A stretch of DNA of 44,774 bases, from the IMG/VR virus record IMGVR_UViG_3300034169_000012, positions 1 through 44,774 of that record; one strand, written 5' to 3'. The notes under the pieces were generated by a model. It was given only the letters and a program-made list of their open reading frames with translations. It was not told where the DNA came from and made no database searches. Below, piece after piece: positions 22,830 to 40,790 of this stretch (position 1 is the first letter of the stretch; each line of letters begins with the position of its first letter). The DNA is from a virus. Both the position numbers and the translations under genes were made by a program.

Positions 22830-23990
22830 TTAGGTCGCGCCGTAGATCCGGGCGTGCTTCAGGGCGCTGTGGAACTCGAGGCCGATGTGCCCGGAGTATT
22901 CGTCGAGCAGGTACTTGGCGTTCTTGGGCTGAAGATCCGTCTCCAGCGTGAGGTCGAGGCCGGTGAGGTACCTGTAAACGAGCTCCTTCATGTCGATGAG
23001 GAGCGCTTCGCCGGCGTAGGGGCCGAGGAAGTTACGGTTGAGGACGATGTTGACATCGCCGAACGGGGAGGTGTAGATCGTGTACTTAATGCCGAACTTG
23101 CTGATGTCGCCCTGCTTCGTGATGAAGGAGGTCGTCTGGGCCCAGCCGTTCATGTAAGCGACGATGAGCGGGGAGGCGAACAGGAACTTTTCGCTGGAGC
23201 CGTAGGCCATGGCGTCCCGGAGCCAGCCGTCGAAGTCGTCCTTGTGGAGGGCGCCGGCGGCGTTGAGGGCGGGGGAGGTGGAGCCCATAAAGTACTTCAT
23301 GCCGCCCGTGGCGTACTTCGGGCCGGTCGCGTCGAGGTAGGGCTCGCCGAACAGAAGCTGGGCTTCGATGTCGCGCTTGATGTCGATGCCGACCTTCTTG
23401 CGCTCGTACATCCGGCGGTTTCCACCGTAGGTGGCGACGGCGTTCTGGGTCTGCGTGAACTGAACGGGCCGGGAGAAGATCTGGATGTAGTTGTCGACCT
23501 TGGTCTTGACGGTGATGAGCTGATTGCCGACCGTGTAACCTTCGGCCATGGACTGACCGAGCCGGAACAGGTAGGCGTTATTGGCGACGGCGTCAGCGTG
23601 AGCCGCGGTCGTGCCGAAGGCGCGGGTGACGTGGATGTGCTGGGCGGCGCCACCGGTGGGATCGACATCCGTAACCCGGAGAACTTCGCCCGTGGCCACG
23701 GCCTTGACGAGGTCACCGATCTGGAAGATGTCGGCATCGTCCACGATGAGCTCGGTCGTGCCGGCGGTGTAAGCGCCGCCGCCGTTGTTGATCTGGGTCC
23801 ACTTGCCGATCGACTGATCCTCGAACCAGCTGAAGGCTACGTCCTGCGTGGCTTCCTTGCGGAGCTTGGAGAGCAGGGTGACGAAGGGGGCCTCGTCGGG
23901 CTCGAGGTTGAAGATGAAGTCTCTGACGTCGAGCTTCTTGGAGCCGGCTTCGAGTCCGCCGGTCGTGAGAACGGTCCTGGTGTTGGCCAT
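22830..23990 (-). CDS. Major capsid protein, SU10-type (DUF5309)
   Basis: 386 aa, AAAGGAGGGCTCCA before the ATG. The order of elements fits the SU10 major head protein family: N-terminal LDVRDFIFNLEPDEAPFVTL, a small beta domain (TELIVDDADIFQIGDLVKAV, HIHVTRAFGTTAA), YLFRLGQSMAEGY, YIQIFSRPVQFTQTQNAVAT, YGGNRRMYERKKVGIDIKRD with IEAQLLFG, and a C-terminal HK97-like part ending EYSGHIGLEFHSALKHARIY. It builds the icosahedral shell and follows a scaffold-like gene, as usual. Confidence 0.92.
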   Translation of the reverse strand: MANTRTVLTTGGLEAGSKKLDVRDFIFNLEPDEAPFVTLLSKLRKEATQDVAFSWFEDQSIGKWTQINNGGGAYTAGTTELIVDDADIFQIGDLVKAVATGEVLRVTDVDPTGGAAQHIHVTRAFGTTAAHADAVANNAYLFRLGQSMAEGYTVGNQLITVKTKVDNYIQIFSRPVQFTQTQNAVATYGGNRRMYERKKVGIDIKRDIEAQLLFGEPYLDATGPKYATGGMKYFMGSTSPALNAAGALHKDDFDGWLRDAMAYGSSEKFLFASPLIVAYMNGWAQTTSFITKQGDISKFGIKYTIYTSPFGDVNIVLNRNFLGPYAGEALLIDMKELVYRYLTGLDLTLETDLQPKNAKYLLDEYSGHIGLEFHSALKHARIYGAT

Positions 23991-24009: not shown

Positions 24010-24888
24010 CTAGAACTTGTCCGAGTCGTTGATGGCCTTCAGTATGTCAGCCGCTTCCTTCTCGCCAGCCTTCAGGATGCTGGGAACCTGGACACCGGTC
24101 CCGGACGATACGGGCTGTTGGCGGATCCGCCCAAGGAGACCCTTGAGCTTTTCGGAGTCCGCCGCGGCACCCAGGCCAAGCTCCGCTCGGAGCTCGCTGG
24201 CCAGGCCCTTGATGTGCCTGGAATATGCGCCCTGCGCCCTGTCGTACAGGGTGTCGATGTCGGCCCCTGGGTCCTGCTTCGAGAGCTCCAGCATCACCGG
24301 GCGTAGCTTCTGCCACTCCTCGGGATTGGCGGCGATCTTGGCTTCGACCCGAGTCTTCAGGGACTCGAACGTCTTGGCCTCCTCGCGCTTCTGGGCTCTG
24401 CGATCCCCCAGGTCCACGAGACCCTTGGCGAACTCCTTGAGCTTCGCCGGGTTCATGACGAGGTCGAGCGGGTTGTCGGGAATGACGATGTCTTCATCGC
24501 CGTCGCTGGCCGAGCCTCGCGCATCTCGCGCTCCGCCCTGAGCCATGCCCTCACCCACCGCCGGAAAGCGTCCGACTGCTGAGAGGCGCCTCACGTCTTG
24601 GTCAAGCTGTGTGTTGCGCTTCTCTAGACTTTCCGCCATCTCGACGATCTTCGCCGGGTCGTTGATGCCCTTCTTCCGCATGAACGCCTGGACCCTCGCA
24701 ACGGAGGCGTCCTCGTCGCTCATCTCGGGAGCGGCACCAGCCTCAGCCGGCGCAGGTTCGTCTGCCTTGGCGGCCGCCTGGATCTGCTCGTCGGCCTTCG
24801 CCTCGAGCGCGGCCAGGTCTTCCTCTGGAGTCCTCGTCACCGACTCGGTGCCCACATCGGGGCCCGCGGTAGCTTTCGGGTCTTCCAT
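24010..24888 (-). CDS. Putative scaffolding protein
   Basis: 292 aa, first gene of the leftward late unit; GGAGAG precedes the ATG. It is acidic, Ala/Glu/Lys-rich and almost wholly helical, with an N-terminal disordered Pro/Ala part, helices such as AKIVEMAESLEKRNTQLDQD (about 80-100), a Gly/Asp-rich linker, and a C-terminal helical end (GEKEAADILKAINDSDKF). This composition and the place just before the capsid gene are typical of internal scaffolds of podoviruses. No protease motif is visible. Confidence 0.7.
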   Translation of the reverse strand: MEDPKATAGPDVGTESVTRTPEEDLAALEAKADEQIQAAAKADEPAPAEAGAAPEMSDEDASVARVQAFMRKKGINDPAKIVEMAESLEKRNTQLDQDVRRLSAVGRFPAVGEGMAQGGARDARGSASDGDEDIVIPDNPLDLVMNPAKLKEFAKGLVDLGDRRAQKREEAKTFESLKTRVEAKIAANPEEWQKLRPVMLELSKQDPGADIDTLYDRAQGAYSRHIKGLASELRAELGLGAAADSEKLKGLLGRIRQQPVSSGTGVQVPSILKAGEKEAADILKAINDSDKF

Positions 24889-24929
24889 GCTTCACTCTCC
24901 GTAGCCCATTACAGGGCCCGTCTCATTAC

Positions 24930-24966
24930 GCCCGTGATATTACCATGCCGCCAGGGGGAATGTCAA
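24930..24966 (-). promoter_or_regulatory. Predicted sigma70-type late promoter with extended -10
   Basis: On the minus strand, TTGACA lies at 24966-24961, an 18-bp spacer follows, and TAATAT lies at 24942-24937, preceded directly by TGG (extended -10, TGn). The predicted transcript start is near 24930, about 42 nt upstream of the scaffold ATG. This would be the start of the long leftward virion unit. The -10 overlaps the sequence CCGTGATA (plus strand 24932-24939), which also occurs in the promoter of the Cro-like gene. Confidence 0.65.
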
Positions 24967-25066
24967 GGCGGCGTCGACGGAGCCCATCCCCACCACCTCC
25001 CATCCGGATCGCCCTTTAGACTAAGTAAGATTAAATCTAATATACCGGTAGTGCAAATTAAAATGA

Positions 25067-25142
25067 AGAAGAAGACTTGCGGTTCTAGACACGTAGCATT
25101 AGCGTAGTGGCTAGAACATAGCAAGCTTCGTAGTCTTCTTCT
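25067..25142. other. Strong 76-nt hairpin with interrupted 21-bp stem
   Basis: Arms AGAAGAAGA (25067-25075) and TCTTCTTCT (25134-25142) pair perfectly; CTTGC (25076-25080) pairs with GCAAG (25121-25125); GTTCTAG (25082-25088) pairs with CTAGAAC (25111-25117). An asymmetric bulge and a 22-nt loop remain. Read on the minus strand, the stem is followed by TCATTTTAATTT, which could serve as a weak terminator or as the 3' end of a small RNA. On the plus strand no T-run follows. Confidence 0.7.
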
Positions 25143-25564
25143 GACCAGATAAGATCCCCTCCGTAGGTCCCCCTCCGATAGCACCAATCCAGCAAGACGA
25201 AGCCGCACCGATGGCGAAGCCACAAGACAGCCGGCCGAGAGCCCCACTCGAATTGACCACTCGATGAAGCCCGGAGTCGGAACGGATACCACCCCAGCTG
25301 GTACTTGCTGTGAGTAAGCCACAACCAGTGGTACCGAAAGGGATCCCTTGCATAATGCAAGGTGGATGGGACCCTATCTCGTTGATAGCACGGGGGGAGC
25401 GATGTAGGAAATGGTGTGTGCGTTCTCGAGACAAGCATATCATCACTGCCCTCGGGACGGGAGTCCCGGGTGCCTACCCTCCCCACCATGGTCTAAGCTG
25501 TTGATCCTCCTTGACTTAGAGCCTGCTCAAAAGAGCCAGCCCTGCCTGATCCCTGCTTAGTTGA

Positions 25565-25580
25565 CATAATAGCTATTATG
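25565..25580. promoter_or_regulatory. Perfect 16-bp palindrome in AT-rich patch (candidate operator)
   Basis: CATAATAGCTATTATG is its own reverse complement. The TTGACA at 25561-25566 overlaps its left end, but no -10 lies 16-18 bp downstream, so I do not call a promoter. Symmetric sites of this length usually bind dimeric HTH repressors. The patch around it is the most AT-rich in the genome. Which of the phage regulators binds here is unknown. Confidence 0.5.
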
Positions 25581-25607
25581 CGACTCAGATCGCTGTATCT
25601 ATATGTG

Positions 25608-25616
25608 TTATCAACA
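25608..25616 (+). promoter_or_regulatory. DnaA-box-like site
   Basis: TTATCAACA differs from the consensus DnaA box TTATCCACA at one base. It lies in the AT-rich patch (25555-25640), between the 16-bp palindrome and the iteron cluster, which is a plausible origin layout. One imperfect box is weak evidence alone. Confidence 0.3.
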
Positions 25617-25744
25617 GGTTAAAAGGGTGTGTTACTACTATGCTTGACGTGGTAGTGTGTCACGCACAGCATGAAAAGGGGCCGATCCAGGCCCTCGACG
25701 TGGGCCGATGGGCATCTATTTGCGATACGGCTCGACCCTAACCC

Positions 25745-25804
25745 GCACCGCTCTTTTGACACCGCTCCGCACCGCTCCGGCTATAGCTCCGCACCGCTCC
25801 GGCT
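25745..25804. repeat. Iteron-like cluster, four copies of CACCGCTCY
   Basis: CACCGCTC(C/T) starts at 25746, 25760, 25770 and 25792; the last two are part of a longer identical unit GCACCGCTCCGGCT (25769-25782 and 25791-25804), 22 bp apart, which is two helical turns. Short direct repeats next to an AT-rich patch are typical of iteron-type replication origins and of arrays bound by an initiator or repressor. The binding protein could be the replication-initiator-like product at 35641-36072. Function is inferred. Confidence 0.55.
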
Positions 25805-26095
25805 GGCTGGTCCTTCTTAAGCTCTGGCCGACCCTCCGGCTGGACCTGATCTTCGAGCGCTGGCCGTCCTGGCCTGTTTTTCGGCTTCACTGCTCTAGCG
25901 GCTGGCTGTACAGTTTGGCCCTGCCTTATGGTATAGTTTGCTCTGCGGCTGTAACTCCATTCAACAACAGCGACTTGACTCAAGCTCCTGCCTGTAGACC
26001 AAAATGGCTTCGAGGCTGAAAACACCACAAGACGAACTATTTTCAAATATCTTTTCTCCCCTGGTGATATGGGGGGAATTGTGACCTCGGGGCAT

Positions 26096-26131
26096 TTGAC
26101 AGCGACAGGAGCTTGTCTCATTATGTGGGTG
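26096..26131 (+). promoter_or_regulatory. Predicted rightward sigma70 promoter for the structured RNA/early unit
   Basis: A consensus TTGACA (26096-26101), a spacer of exactly 17 bp, and CATTAT (26119-26124, four of six matches). The spacer holds GACA-N6-TGTC, a possible operator. The predicted start, near 26131, falls on the first base of a perfect 7-bp hairpin, as expected for a structured RNA. This is the best rightward promoter in the control region. Confidence 0.7.
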
Positions 26132-26830
26132 TCACCCGGTGGGTGACGGAAGGCGACCCGGGAGCGGGGCCTTGACGAGCCGGAAGCCCGGCGGCCACGG
26201 GGTCGAGGCGGAAGGCGACAATCGAACCTGAGCGAGAGGCCCGGCGATCCCCTCTGAAGAAGGGGCCGAGGGCCCAGGCTAATGACTCGGGGCGGCACCC
26301 GAGGCGACAAGGCATGGCCTGGGGGACGCGGGAGCGGATAGGCCCGGCAGTCTCGCAAAGGGTTCGTACATCCGGCAGAACTGACACACAGGGAAGGCGT
26401 GGCCGCCTCCGTTCAAGCTTAAAATGGGAGCGTTCTCCTGGCCTGGCGATGACCCAGGCTCGGCGGCGGAGCGAAGCCAGGCGCACCCCGAGACCAACCC
26501 ATGACCTAACGAGCCGCCGTCATCGGCGACTATGAGGCCCGGCAAATATGGGGGGATCGAGGGACGCGCCCGGAGGCTTGGGGCCAGAGCGTGACAGGCA
26601 AGGCTTACCCTGTGTCGTGCCGGGTGCTCGAGACCGCTCGGGCTTGGGGCCTGGAGGCCCTGATAGAGTGGCGGCTGTGCTATGGCGCTTAGCTCCCATG
26701 TAGGACGTTCCCGAATGGGGCGGCCGTGGGCGCGGTGACCGGGCCGCCGCTCTATCAAGACCCCCAGGGTCGAGGCCGGGCAACGGCTGGCAGTCTTAGC
26801 CCCTCGGGGCCAAGCGCTCAGGCCTAGCCC
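26131..26830 (+). ncRNA. Candidate large structured non-coding RNA (or very long structured leader), about 700 nt
   Basis: GC-rich sequence without a credible gene, starting at a predicted promoter. Helices that can be seen: GTCACCC-GGT-GGGTGAC (26131-26147); CGACCC/GGGTCG (26154/26200) enclosing GCCGG-AAGC-CCGGC; CTCGGG/CCCGAG (26286-26303); GCCTGG/CCAGGC (26441-26459); CGCCG-TCAT-CGGCG (26515-26528); GGGCC-TGGA-GGCCC (26647-26660); a 15-bp stem with one G-U pair between 26661-26675 and 26743-26757; GACCC-CCA-GGGTC (26759-26771); GCCG/CGGC (26775-26787). Internal repeats occur: CGGAAGGCGAC twice, CGGGAGCGG twice, GGCTTGGGGCC twice. No terminator is seen before the gene at 26865, so it may also be a leader. 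Size and setting recall GOLLD/ROOL-type phage RNAs, but I cannot match it to a known family. Confidence 0.55.
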
Positions 26831-26864
26831 TTCACCACTAACCCACAGAAAACATGGAGGAAAC

Positions 26865-27050
26865 ATGGTCAGCGTCACGTTCCACAAGGTCGTCAAGGTC
26901 GAGGCGGAGAAGATCGGCCGCCTCGGAACCGGGTCCTACGCCCGGAGGATCATCGCCAAGGACGAGACGGGCCGGACAGTCGAGCTTGTCCTGTTCTCCG
27001 ATGAAAAGGCCAAGCTGGCCATCGAGGCCGAGACGAAGGTCCGGTCCTGA
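26865..27050 (+). CDS. Small hypothetical protein, first early gene
   Basis: 61 aa, ATGGAGGAAAC before the ATG. Highly charged with beta-strand-like alternation (TFHKVVKVEAEKIG, GRTVELVLFSDEKAKLAIEA). No motif is recognised. It is the first gene after the candidate structured RNA and would be the first translated product of the early transcript. The shape is that of small early phage proteins that modulate host factors, but nothing specific can be stated. Confidence 0.75.
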   Translation: MVSVTFHKVVKVEAEKIGRLGTGSYARRIIAKDETGRTVELVLFSDEKAKLAIEAETKVRS

Positions 27051-29222: not shown

Positions 29223-29567
29223 GTGGCCGGCCAAATACGGATCATCGACGTGAAGATCGAGGTGCGGCAACCCCCGTTCGCCAGCTTTCTCATTCCTGTC
29301 CCGGTTGTGGCGGTGGATAAAGGCACGCTGGAAGTCGTTGCTCGCTTCGATATTCAGGTGACACCGGAGCCCGGGTACGACAAACCCGTATGGCTCGATG
29401 TTATCAACGCCTCCGGCGGGTACGAGTTCAGCGTCAACCCCATCCCCGTGGGCGGCGGGGCCTCGCTCCTGACGATCCACTGCGAGGGCTTCCAGGTCGG
29501 AGACTCCTGGCTGTCCGTGGCGGCGATGGAAGACCAGCCCGTCCTCGGGGAGGAGGGCGATGCCTGA
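29223..29567 (+). CDS. Hypothetical beta-rich protein
   Basis: 114 aa, GTG start 1 base after the previous stop, so translation probably depends on coupling. Nearly all beta-strand by pattern (IRIIDVKIEVRQPPFASFLI, PVVAVDKGTLEVVARFDIQV), with Pro/Gly turns, suggesting an immunoglobulin-like or small beta-sandwich domain. Its end overlaps the LuxR-type regulator gene by 8 nt. Function is unknown. Confidence 0.65.
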   Translation: MAGQIRIIDVKIEVRQPPFASFLIPVPVVAVDKGTLEVVARFDIQVTPEPGYDKPVWLDVINASGGYEFSVNPIPVGGGASLLTIHCEGFQVGDSWLSVAAMEDQPVLGEEGDA

Positions 29568-29865
29568 GACAATCGAGACCATGCGGCAAGCCCTGGTGTC
29601 TGGAGTAGCCAGCACCAGGGCCTCCCTGCCCGGGCATGAGGGGAACAGAACCTGCTCGACGCTCTCGCCGAGAGAGGTCGAAGTCCTCGAGCTAGTAGGG
29701 CTTGGCCTCAGCAACGCCGAGATCGCTGACTGCCTGTTCATCTCACCGCTCACGGCCAGGGTATATCTCAAGCGGCTCCACGATAAATGCGGAGTCGAAG
29801 GGCGGGCCAGACTCGCCGTGGTATCATCAATCATTTTCCAAGGAGGAAAATCATGTACGGACTGA
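29560..29865 (+). CDS. LuxR/GerE-type HTH DNA-binding protein without sensor domain
   Basis: 101 aa. Residues 35-90 form a complete LuxR C-terminal HTH: LSPREVEVLELVGLGLSNAE, IADCLFISPLTARVYLKRLH, and a final helix with GVEGRARLAVV. Family features (S-x-R-E-x-x-V-L, G-x-S-N-x-E-I-A, T-x-x-x-Y/H-L) are present. The first 34 residues are too short for an autoinducer or receiver domain, so this is a stand-alone DNA-binding module like GerE. It overlaps both neighbours, so it belongs to the early run. Likely role: transcription control of phage or host promoters. Confidence 0.88.
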   Translation: MPETIETMRQALVSGVASTRASLPGHEGNRTCSTLSPREVEVLELVGLGLSNAEIADCLFISPLTARVYLKRLHDKCGVEGRARLAVVSSIIFQGGKSCTD

Positions 29866-31964: not shown

Positions 31965-32266
31965 GGTGCCGAGTCATTGGGAAGCGCGGGGGCATCAGGT
32001 TCGACGTCGTGTCCTGTGTCACCTGCATCAGCTGGCCGGGGTGCTCGAGCGCTTCGGCCCTCACCCTCAGCTACGGGTGCCGGGACTGGGTCGACTTCGA
32101 GGACGGGAGCCGCATCGCTCCGGACGTGCCGGCCCCGGCCGAGATCACGATTGAGGGAGCAGACTCGCCGGCGGACATCGTGGCCAAGGACGCGGCGGCC
32201 AAGGTCGACCACATCCGAGAGGCGCTGGTCGACATGCTACCTCCGGACAAGGAGAAGAAATCATGA
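31961..32266 (+). CDS. Hypothetical protein with N-terminal cysteines
   Basis: 101 aa; ATG overlaps the previous TGA, and its own TGA overlaps the next ATG. Four cysteines lie in the first 45 residues (RCRVIGK, SCVTCISWPGC, YGCRDW), which could bind a metal together. The second half is acidic and helical (VDHIREALVDMLPPDKEKK). No family recognised. Confidence 0.65.
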   Translation: MRCRVIGKRGGIRFDVVSCVTCISWPGCSSASALTLSYGCRDWVDFEDGSRIAPDVPAPAEITIEGADSPADIVAKDAAAKVDHIREALVDMLPPDKEKKS

Positions 32267-32574
32267 GGCACCACGAAGCACCGAACCCGCTACGCCGAGG
32301 GGCCGGCGAGGCCGAGGCATCAGAGGTCGAGTTCACAAACAGCAAGCACAGCGCAGACGTGAAGTACGACGTGCACCGGGCCCTCGCCAAGCTCCCGGTG
32401 GTCAACCGCCGGATCATCGTGCTCCGATACTTCGAGGAGATGACGTTCAAAGAGGCCGGCGAGATCATGGGGATCAGCGACGAGGCGGCCCGCCGCCTGT
32501 TCGTGACGTCGGCCAGGGCCCTGAAGGCCGAGCTGGAGAGGGCCGGGCACGGGAAATCATCCATCACTCCTTGA
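32263..32574 (+). CDS. Sigma factor region 4-like HTH protein
   Basis: 103 aa. Residues 36-92 fit sigma-70 region 4: VHRALAKLPVVNRRIIVLRY, then FEEMTFKEAGEIMGISDEAA as the HTH, and RRLFVTSARALKAELE as the last helix. Region 2 is missing, so it cannot act as a full sigma factor. It may be an anti-sigma or polymerase-binding protein, or a transcription activator such as the small sigma-4-like proteins of phages. The stop codon lies inside the -35 box of the next promoter. Confidence 0.8.
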   Translation: MRHHEAPNPLRRGAGEAEASEVEFTNSKHSADVKYDVHRALAKLPVVNRRIIVLRYFEEMTFKEAGEIMGISDEAARRLFVTSARALKAELERAGHGKSSITP

Positions 32575-32599
32575 CATTCCGTGATACTCCTGCTACACT
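32571..32599 (+). promoter_or_regulatory. Internal promoter giving a nearly leaderless mRNA for the Cro-like gene
   Basis: TTGACA (32571-32576), a 17-bp spacer, TACACT (32594-32599, four of six matches). The predicted start, about 32605, is only 2-3 nt before the ATG at 32608, so the mRNA would be almost leaderless, as for the lambda cI gene from its maintenance promoter. The spacer contains CCGTGATA (32579-32586), also found at the late promoter. Confidence 0.65.
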
Positions 32600-32607
32600 G
32601 GGGGAAC

Positions 32608-32835
32608 ATGATAGAAATCAAGATCGTCCCCCGAATCCGCGAACGGCTCGCCGAGATGGGGCGCCGCCCGGTGTGGCTCAGTCGGCAGACGGGCATCCAC
32701 AAGCCGTCCCTTACAAAAATCATGAACGGTCAGCCCGTCATGCTTGAGACTGCCTACTCTATCTCGGCGGCGCTCGGCCAGACAGTCGAGCAAATCTGGA
32801 TCATCAAGGAGGTGGAGTGTGAAGACGATGTCTAA
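32608..32835 (+). CDS. Cro/CI-type HTH regulator
   Basis: 75 aa from the ATG at 32608. Residues about 5-60 form a Cro-like five-helix HTH: PRIRERLAEMGRRPVWLSRQ, TGIHKPSLTKIMNGQPVM as helices 2-3 with the recognition helix, and LETAYSISAALGQTVEQIW. The layout 'la..tgi....ls.i..g......al.ia.aLg.tve.iw' is that of the XRE family. It has its own promoter inside the early run and no dimerisation domain beyond the HTH. It probably represses early or late promoters. Confidence 0.88.
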   Translation: MIEIKIVPRIRERLAEMGRRPVWLSRQTGIHKPSLTKIMNGQPVMLETAYSISAALGQTVEQIWIIKEVECEDDV

Positions 32836-40415: not shown

Positions 40416-40581
40416 GATCCTGAAGGGGATCGCCCGCTTCCTCGCGGGTGGCCGGCGCCTGGCCAGCTGGGAGATCGCGCTGATCGCCGACGCCCAGGCC
40501 AAGCGCGAGCGCAGGAAGGCCCGCAACCTGCGATGGTGGGCCAGGGATCGTAACTGGCACATCGAGTGCGGGAGGGGCTGA
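40285..40581 (+). CDS. Basic hypothetical protein
   Basis: 98 aa, GAGGAGGCTGACA before the ATG. Strongly basic (many Lys and Arg: DRKKKRSGEGPTYKILKG, AKRERRKARNLRWWARDR) and helical, so nucleic-acid binding is likely. The strong RBS supports it over the overlapping tail of the upstream frame. TGA overlaps the next ATG (TGATG). Confidence 0.65.
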   Translation: MRPFFFNKNKGYQAAESRRVTAYRLSQSTMDRKKKRSGEGPTYKILKGIARFLAGGRRLASWEIALIADAQAKRERRKARNLRWWARDRNWHIECGRG

Positions 40582-40790
40582 TGCCGATCTACGCCTTCAG
40601 GTGCCTGAACGTCGAGTGCGGCCTGGAGTTTGAGGGGACGCTTCCGATTGAGAAGCGCAACACGTTCATCATGTATTGCCCCGAGTGCGATGAGCCCAGC
40701 CTGCGCGTCCCGGCTCCGTCCACATTCCGCCTGCACAACGGCAAGGTCGGGGGGTTCATGAAGAACAGCGGGAAGGTGACGGGGGGATGA
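40581..40790 (+). CDS. FmdB-like zinc-ribbon protein, last early gene
   Basis: 69 aa. It starts PIYAFRCLNVECGLEFEG and has CPEC at 33-36, with Cys8 and Cys13 as the first pair (spacing of four rather than the usual two), then a basic/Phe end. FmdB-type ribbons are found as putative regulators. It is the last gene before the terminator at 40822. Function in phages is unknown. Confidence 0.75.
   Translation: MPIYAFRCLNVECGLEFEGTLPIEKRNTFIMYCPECDEPSLRVPAPSTFRLHNGKVGGFMKNSGKVTGG

Follow-up and report, generated by a model that had tools for sequence, protein, structure and literature searches.

What lies in the ~700 nt between a putative early promoter and the first early gene of an uncultivated bacteriophage? 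The phage is known as virus record IMGVR_UViG_3300034169_000012 (IMG/VR), and the window analysed here is its whole stretch of 44,774 nt, with a GC content of 63%. A first-pass annotation had read this segment either as a large phage RNA, perhaps of a new family, or as a long leader with a regulatory role. Our analysis favours the leader as the probable reading; for the large RNA, possible but unproven, the searches gave neither an Rfam match nor a homologue.

Genome organization and the non-coding hub

Late genes run leftward from 24888, with an SU10-type major capsid protein at 22830-23990. The late operon appears to run on via the terminase and portal genes at the right end, which are joined to the left part in three related contigs (L002-L004). 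Early genes run rightward from 26865 and include those for an ERF annealing protein, an exonuclease, SSB, RusA and small sigma-like and repressor-like proteins. The first of them (26865-27050, + strand) encodes 61 aa and scores +0.65 in the codon model; the family search gave no match for it, and no function was assigned. Two small early proteins (29560-29865 and 32263-32574) showed weak matches to phage sigma-factor or transcriptional-regulator families and are possible switches to later transcription. A near-consensus promoter, TTGACA-17-TACACT (from 32571), overlaps the start of the repressor-like gene 32581-32835.

The codon model and period-3 power delimit a non-coding hub of ~2 kb (24890-26864) between the late and early operons. 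The non-coding stretch noted in the first-pass annotation is thus present, but larger than was given there. Within the segment, all six frames scored about -0.05 to -0.8 with a codon model trained on the phage's own genes, versus about +0.5 for real genes. Period-3 power was 0.4-1.3, versus median values of 5.6-7.4 for coding DNA, and the spurious ORFs of the segment had no Pfam or PHROG match. These tests uphold the earlier statement that ~700 nt lack a credible gene, and lead us to reject coding on either strand of the segment.

Several other features were observed in the hub. A perfect 16-bp palindrome, CATAATAGCTATTATG, is operator-like and lies in its AT-rich part (25565-25580). Iteron-like repeats at 25743-25804 consist of three copies of CCGCACCGCTC spaced by 22-24 nt and could mark a replication origin. 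A long hairpin at 25067-25142 (AGAAGAAGACT / AGTCTTCTTCT plus an inner helix) has z of about -2 to -2.6 on both strands. The boxA-like sequence GCTCTTTTGA occurs at 25527-25536 and 25750-25759, one copy per strand and facing outward, possibly by chance.

The early promoter and the predicted transcript start

The promoter proposed at the head of the early operon was found on the + strand at 26096-26124 (TTGACA-17-CATTAT), with a predicted +1 at 26131. It is sigma-70-like with 10/12 matches, a score that assumes the sigma-70 consensus, which may not be that of the host. Scores of 10/12 or more are reached at only four sites in the whole 44.8-kb genome, half of them inside the hub. The other hub site, on the minus strand (24966-24937, TTGACA-18-TAATAT with an extended TG), faces the late operon; on the + strand of the hub, the promoter at 26096-26124 is the sole near-consensus one. 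A perfect 7-bp hairpin, GTCACCC-GGT-GGGTGAC, was likewise confirmed at the predicted +1 (26131-26147, + strand), with a pair probability of 0.98 and z -3.0. The right arm of an inverted pair, TGACTCAAGCTCCTG / CAGGAGCTTGTCTCA (25976-26120), falls inside the promoter spacer, and the two arms are a possible operator pair.

Composition edges

Change points were sought in the region 25500-26864 using 300 permutations. GC jumps at 26127 (support interval 26119-26158) and T drops at 26133 (26123-26154), the predicted +1 at 26131 lying inside both intervals. The strongest of the 300 permutations was less than half as strong as these changes, a strength that is overstated because permutation preserves composition and not local correlation; the telling part is the position of the edge. 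Not all bases switch exactly at +1, since G, which climbs to 0.37, rises already at 26063 (interval 26054-26125). The changes at the 3' edge are weaker than those at the 5' edge: GC falls at 26831 and A rises at 26834, where a linker rich in A begins (26834-26864, + strand) that contains the Shine-Dalgarno sequence GGAGGA and lies directly before the first early gene.

These change points bound a GC-rich non-coding unit on the + strand (26131-26833, GC 0.69, T 0.13), the proposed untranslated leader RNA. The segment is unlike the remaining spacer, because its GC of 0.69 compares with 0.53 in the upstream hub and exceeds that of every early-gene window. Like the early genes, it has a purine-rich sense strand, and the bias is strongest over the first 300 nt. 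The composition edges are the best homologue-free sign, albeit an indirect one, of the segment being transcribed as a unit, and if it is transcribed their sharpness suggests selection on the RNA. Promoter, lack of coding signal and edges at +1 together support, indirectly, the view that the segment is transcribed as a non-coding unit from a promoter of its own.

A candidate leader of the early mRNA

The + strand has no terminator-like site from 26131 to 26864, and a transcript from the promoter should therefore run on into the early genes. Because no terminator precedes the first early gene and a Shine-Dalgarno sequence lies directly ahead of it, we favour, at slightly better than even chances, the reading of the segment as a ~700-nt untranslated 5' leader of the early mRNA. 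What marks an early-operon leader is found here: a promoter at the operon head, non-coding sequence and no terminator before the first gene. Against this reading stand the lack of any homologue found, a whole-length fold within the range of the genome's other windows and a minus strand that reaches z -3.4. Its length is a further objection, as ~700 nt of untranslated leader is long for an early operon in a phage. If the segment is transcribed, such an operon would begin with untranslated RNA of unusual length, about 1.6% of the genome.

Local hairpins and repeats

On the + strand, a long hairpin at 26661-26757 combines an outer stem of 15-16 bp with inner helices (z -3.6; no shuffle was as stable). 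The stem described earlier (15 bp including one G-U pair, between 26661-26675 and 26743-26757) is present and extends to 16 bp with a second wobble. That length was reached in 1/200 shuffles; with the genome covered in 60 tiles of 738 nt each, one held a 16-bp stem (most likely this same 26661-26757) and one a 15-bp stem. The three hairpins reported beside it (26647-26660, 26759-26771 and 26775-26787) are all there, making up a four-hairpin cassette (26647-26787, + strand; z -3.2 for 26646-26790) close upstream of the early genes. Among the 150-nt windows within the segment, 26650-26799 alone stands out. A stable two-helix hairpin lies further upstream on the same strand (26270-26326, pairing 26273-26281/26315-26323 and 26286-26291/26298-26303), with z -2.9; this and the other z-values of local hairpins are generous, because the hairpins were chosen after viewing the fold.

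Motifs of 9-11 nt occurring twice had also been reported. Such repeats do exceed shuffles (13 repeated 9-mers versus 3.5 expected, and 7 repeated 10-mers versus 0.9), but their counts are as high in some other windows of the same phage.

Whole-segment fold, RNA families and homologues

The full-length fold has z -2.2 to -2.3, and 3/120 shuffles were equally stable. Other windows of the phage, mostly coding, have z-values between -3.2 and +1.4; the complementary strand of the segment, at -3.4, folds relatively as well as or better than the sense strand. Ensemble diversity is average for the genome, ensemble definition as a homologue-free sign of structure gave nothing above genome background, and adenines in the segment are unpaired no more often than those of shuffled sequences. 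The comparison with Rfam suggested in the first-pass annotation returned no family for the segment. With Rfam 15, no match reached gathering thresholds in the whole window, and 24880-26880 yielded only two chance-level matches at E up to 5; the segment does not match the GOLLD and ROOL covariance models. No tRNA genes were found in the 44,774-nt window. Of the 'giant structured RNA', the local hairpins rise above chance, but the overall fold stays within genome background and has no Rfam match.

DNA searches found no homologue of the segment in phages, plasmids, fetched viral DNA or the relatives' contigs. Four stem-pattern matches in genome contigs had no other similarity to it and were judged to be chance. 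Relatives were sought via terminase, ERF (among the matches listed), head protein, and structural and early proteins. Among the matches listed none covers the hub; only L002-L004 turned up, three short contigs that are the closest relatives by terminase (75-77% identical), carry the terminase-portal side and stop short of the hub. A single early gene, 40566-40790, has a recognisable match in them, at about 38% identity.

Alternative readings

These searches weigh against the idea that the segment is a large structured RNA in its own right, from a new family and acting alone after being cut from the early mRNA or terminated before it. Its attractions are a ~700-nt non-coding stretch with its own promoter and a distinct composition with sharp ends, several stable hairpins, the repeated 9-11-nt motifs and a size comparable to ROOL and GOLLD. 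We nevertheless consider it unlikely, given that the segment has no intrinsic terminator, its fold energy and ensemble diversity are unexceptional, Rfam gave no match at gathering scores (and two at chance level at E up to 5), the homologue search was empty and, unlike many ROOL and GOLLD loci, this one has no tRNAs nearby. We are just as doubtful that 26131-26833 is an orphan large RNA with its own function, the first of a new family, from an uncultivated clade with an SU10-type capsid protein.

More improbable is a replication origin region, in which a G-rich transcript from 26131 would form an R-loop or a primer near the divergent operons. Gene orientation and skew do switch at the 2-kb hub, G content reaches 0.37, iteron-like repeats are present at 25743-25804, and no replicative polymerase was recognised among the early genes searched. 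The AT-rich stretches and the iteron-like repeats, however, lie upstream of the promoter, outside the segment, and no initiator was recognised.

We give slightly less credence still to the segment being regulatory or spacer sequence that works only as DNA, the real early mRNA starting close to the first gene. In its favour are the empty homologue search and the ordinary whole-length fold, but the hub has no second near-consensus promoter on the + strand, the composition edge falls at +1, and the segment differs from the remaining non-coding hub. A decayed or unusual protein gene, which the long minus-strand ORFs (up to 205-206 aa) would favour, is very improbable and already largely refuted by the lack of codon bias, period-3 power or a family match.

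Proposed mechanism

For the favoured reading, an untranslated leader, we infer transcription, processing and a regulatory role from sequence features. Host RNA polymerase would start at ~26131 from the near-consensus promoter and continue through the leader into the early operon, and the +1 hairpin would shield the 5' end of the transcript. The cassette at 26647-26787, behind which the ribosome-binding region is A-rich and bare, would exert its effect on the transcript ahead of the first gene. Long hairpins placed near the first ribosome-binding site typically serve in processing or regulation. Most likely, the cassette would be where a double-strand RNase (RNase III) processes the transcript; the cassette could otherwise be a folded element that sustains transcription and ribosome access over the long untranslated stretch. 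By analogy with lambda and T7, RNase III processing at the long hairpin is the simplest proposal, and the same leader could alternatively serve in antitermination like that of HK022 put. The segment is a clear query for a metagenome homologue search and could enlarge the small set of large non-coding phage RNAs.

Comparison with known systems

The ornate RNAs GOLLD and ROOL occur in phages and are similar in size to the segment (PMC12286853). The segment differs from them in having no Rfam match and no nearby tRNA genes, which are typical of these RNAs though not strictly defining; it also heads the early operon, and neither folding energy nor ensemble supports a globally well-defined fold. 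The put RNAs of HK022 are folded RNA downstream of the early promoters that acts on early transcription by antitermination (PMC9378689). Their likeness to the segment is confined to position and proposed role, put being ~70 nt with two stem-loops versus a leader of ~700 nt here. RNase III sites are found in the lambda N leader and in T7 early mRNA. The leader proposed here is much longer, and its cleavage by RNase III is a proposal, but here too a long hairpin would precede the first gene within the untranslated part of an early transcript.
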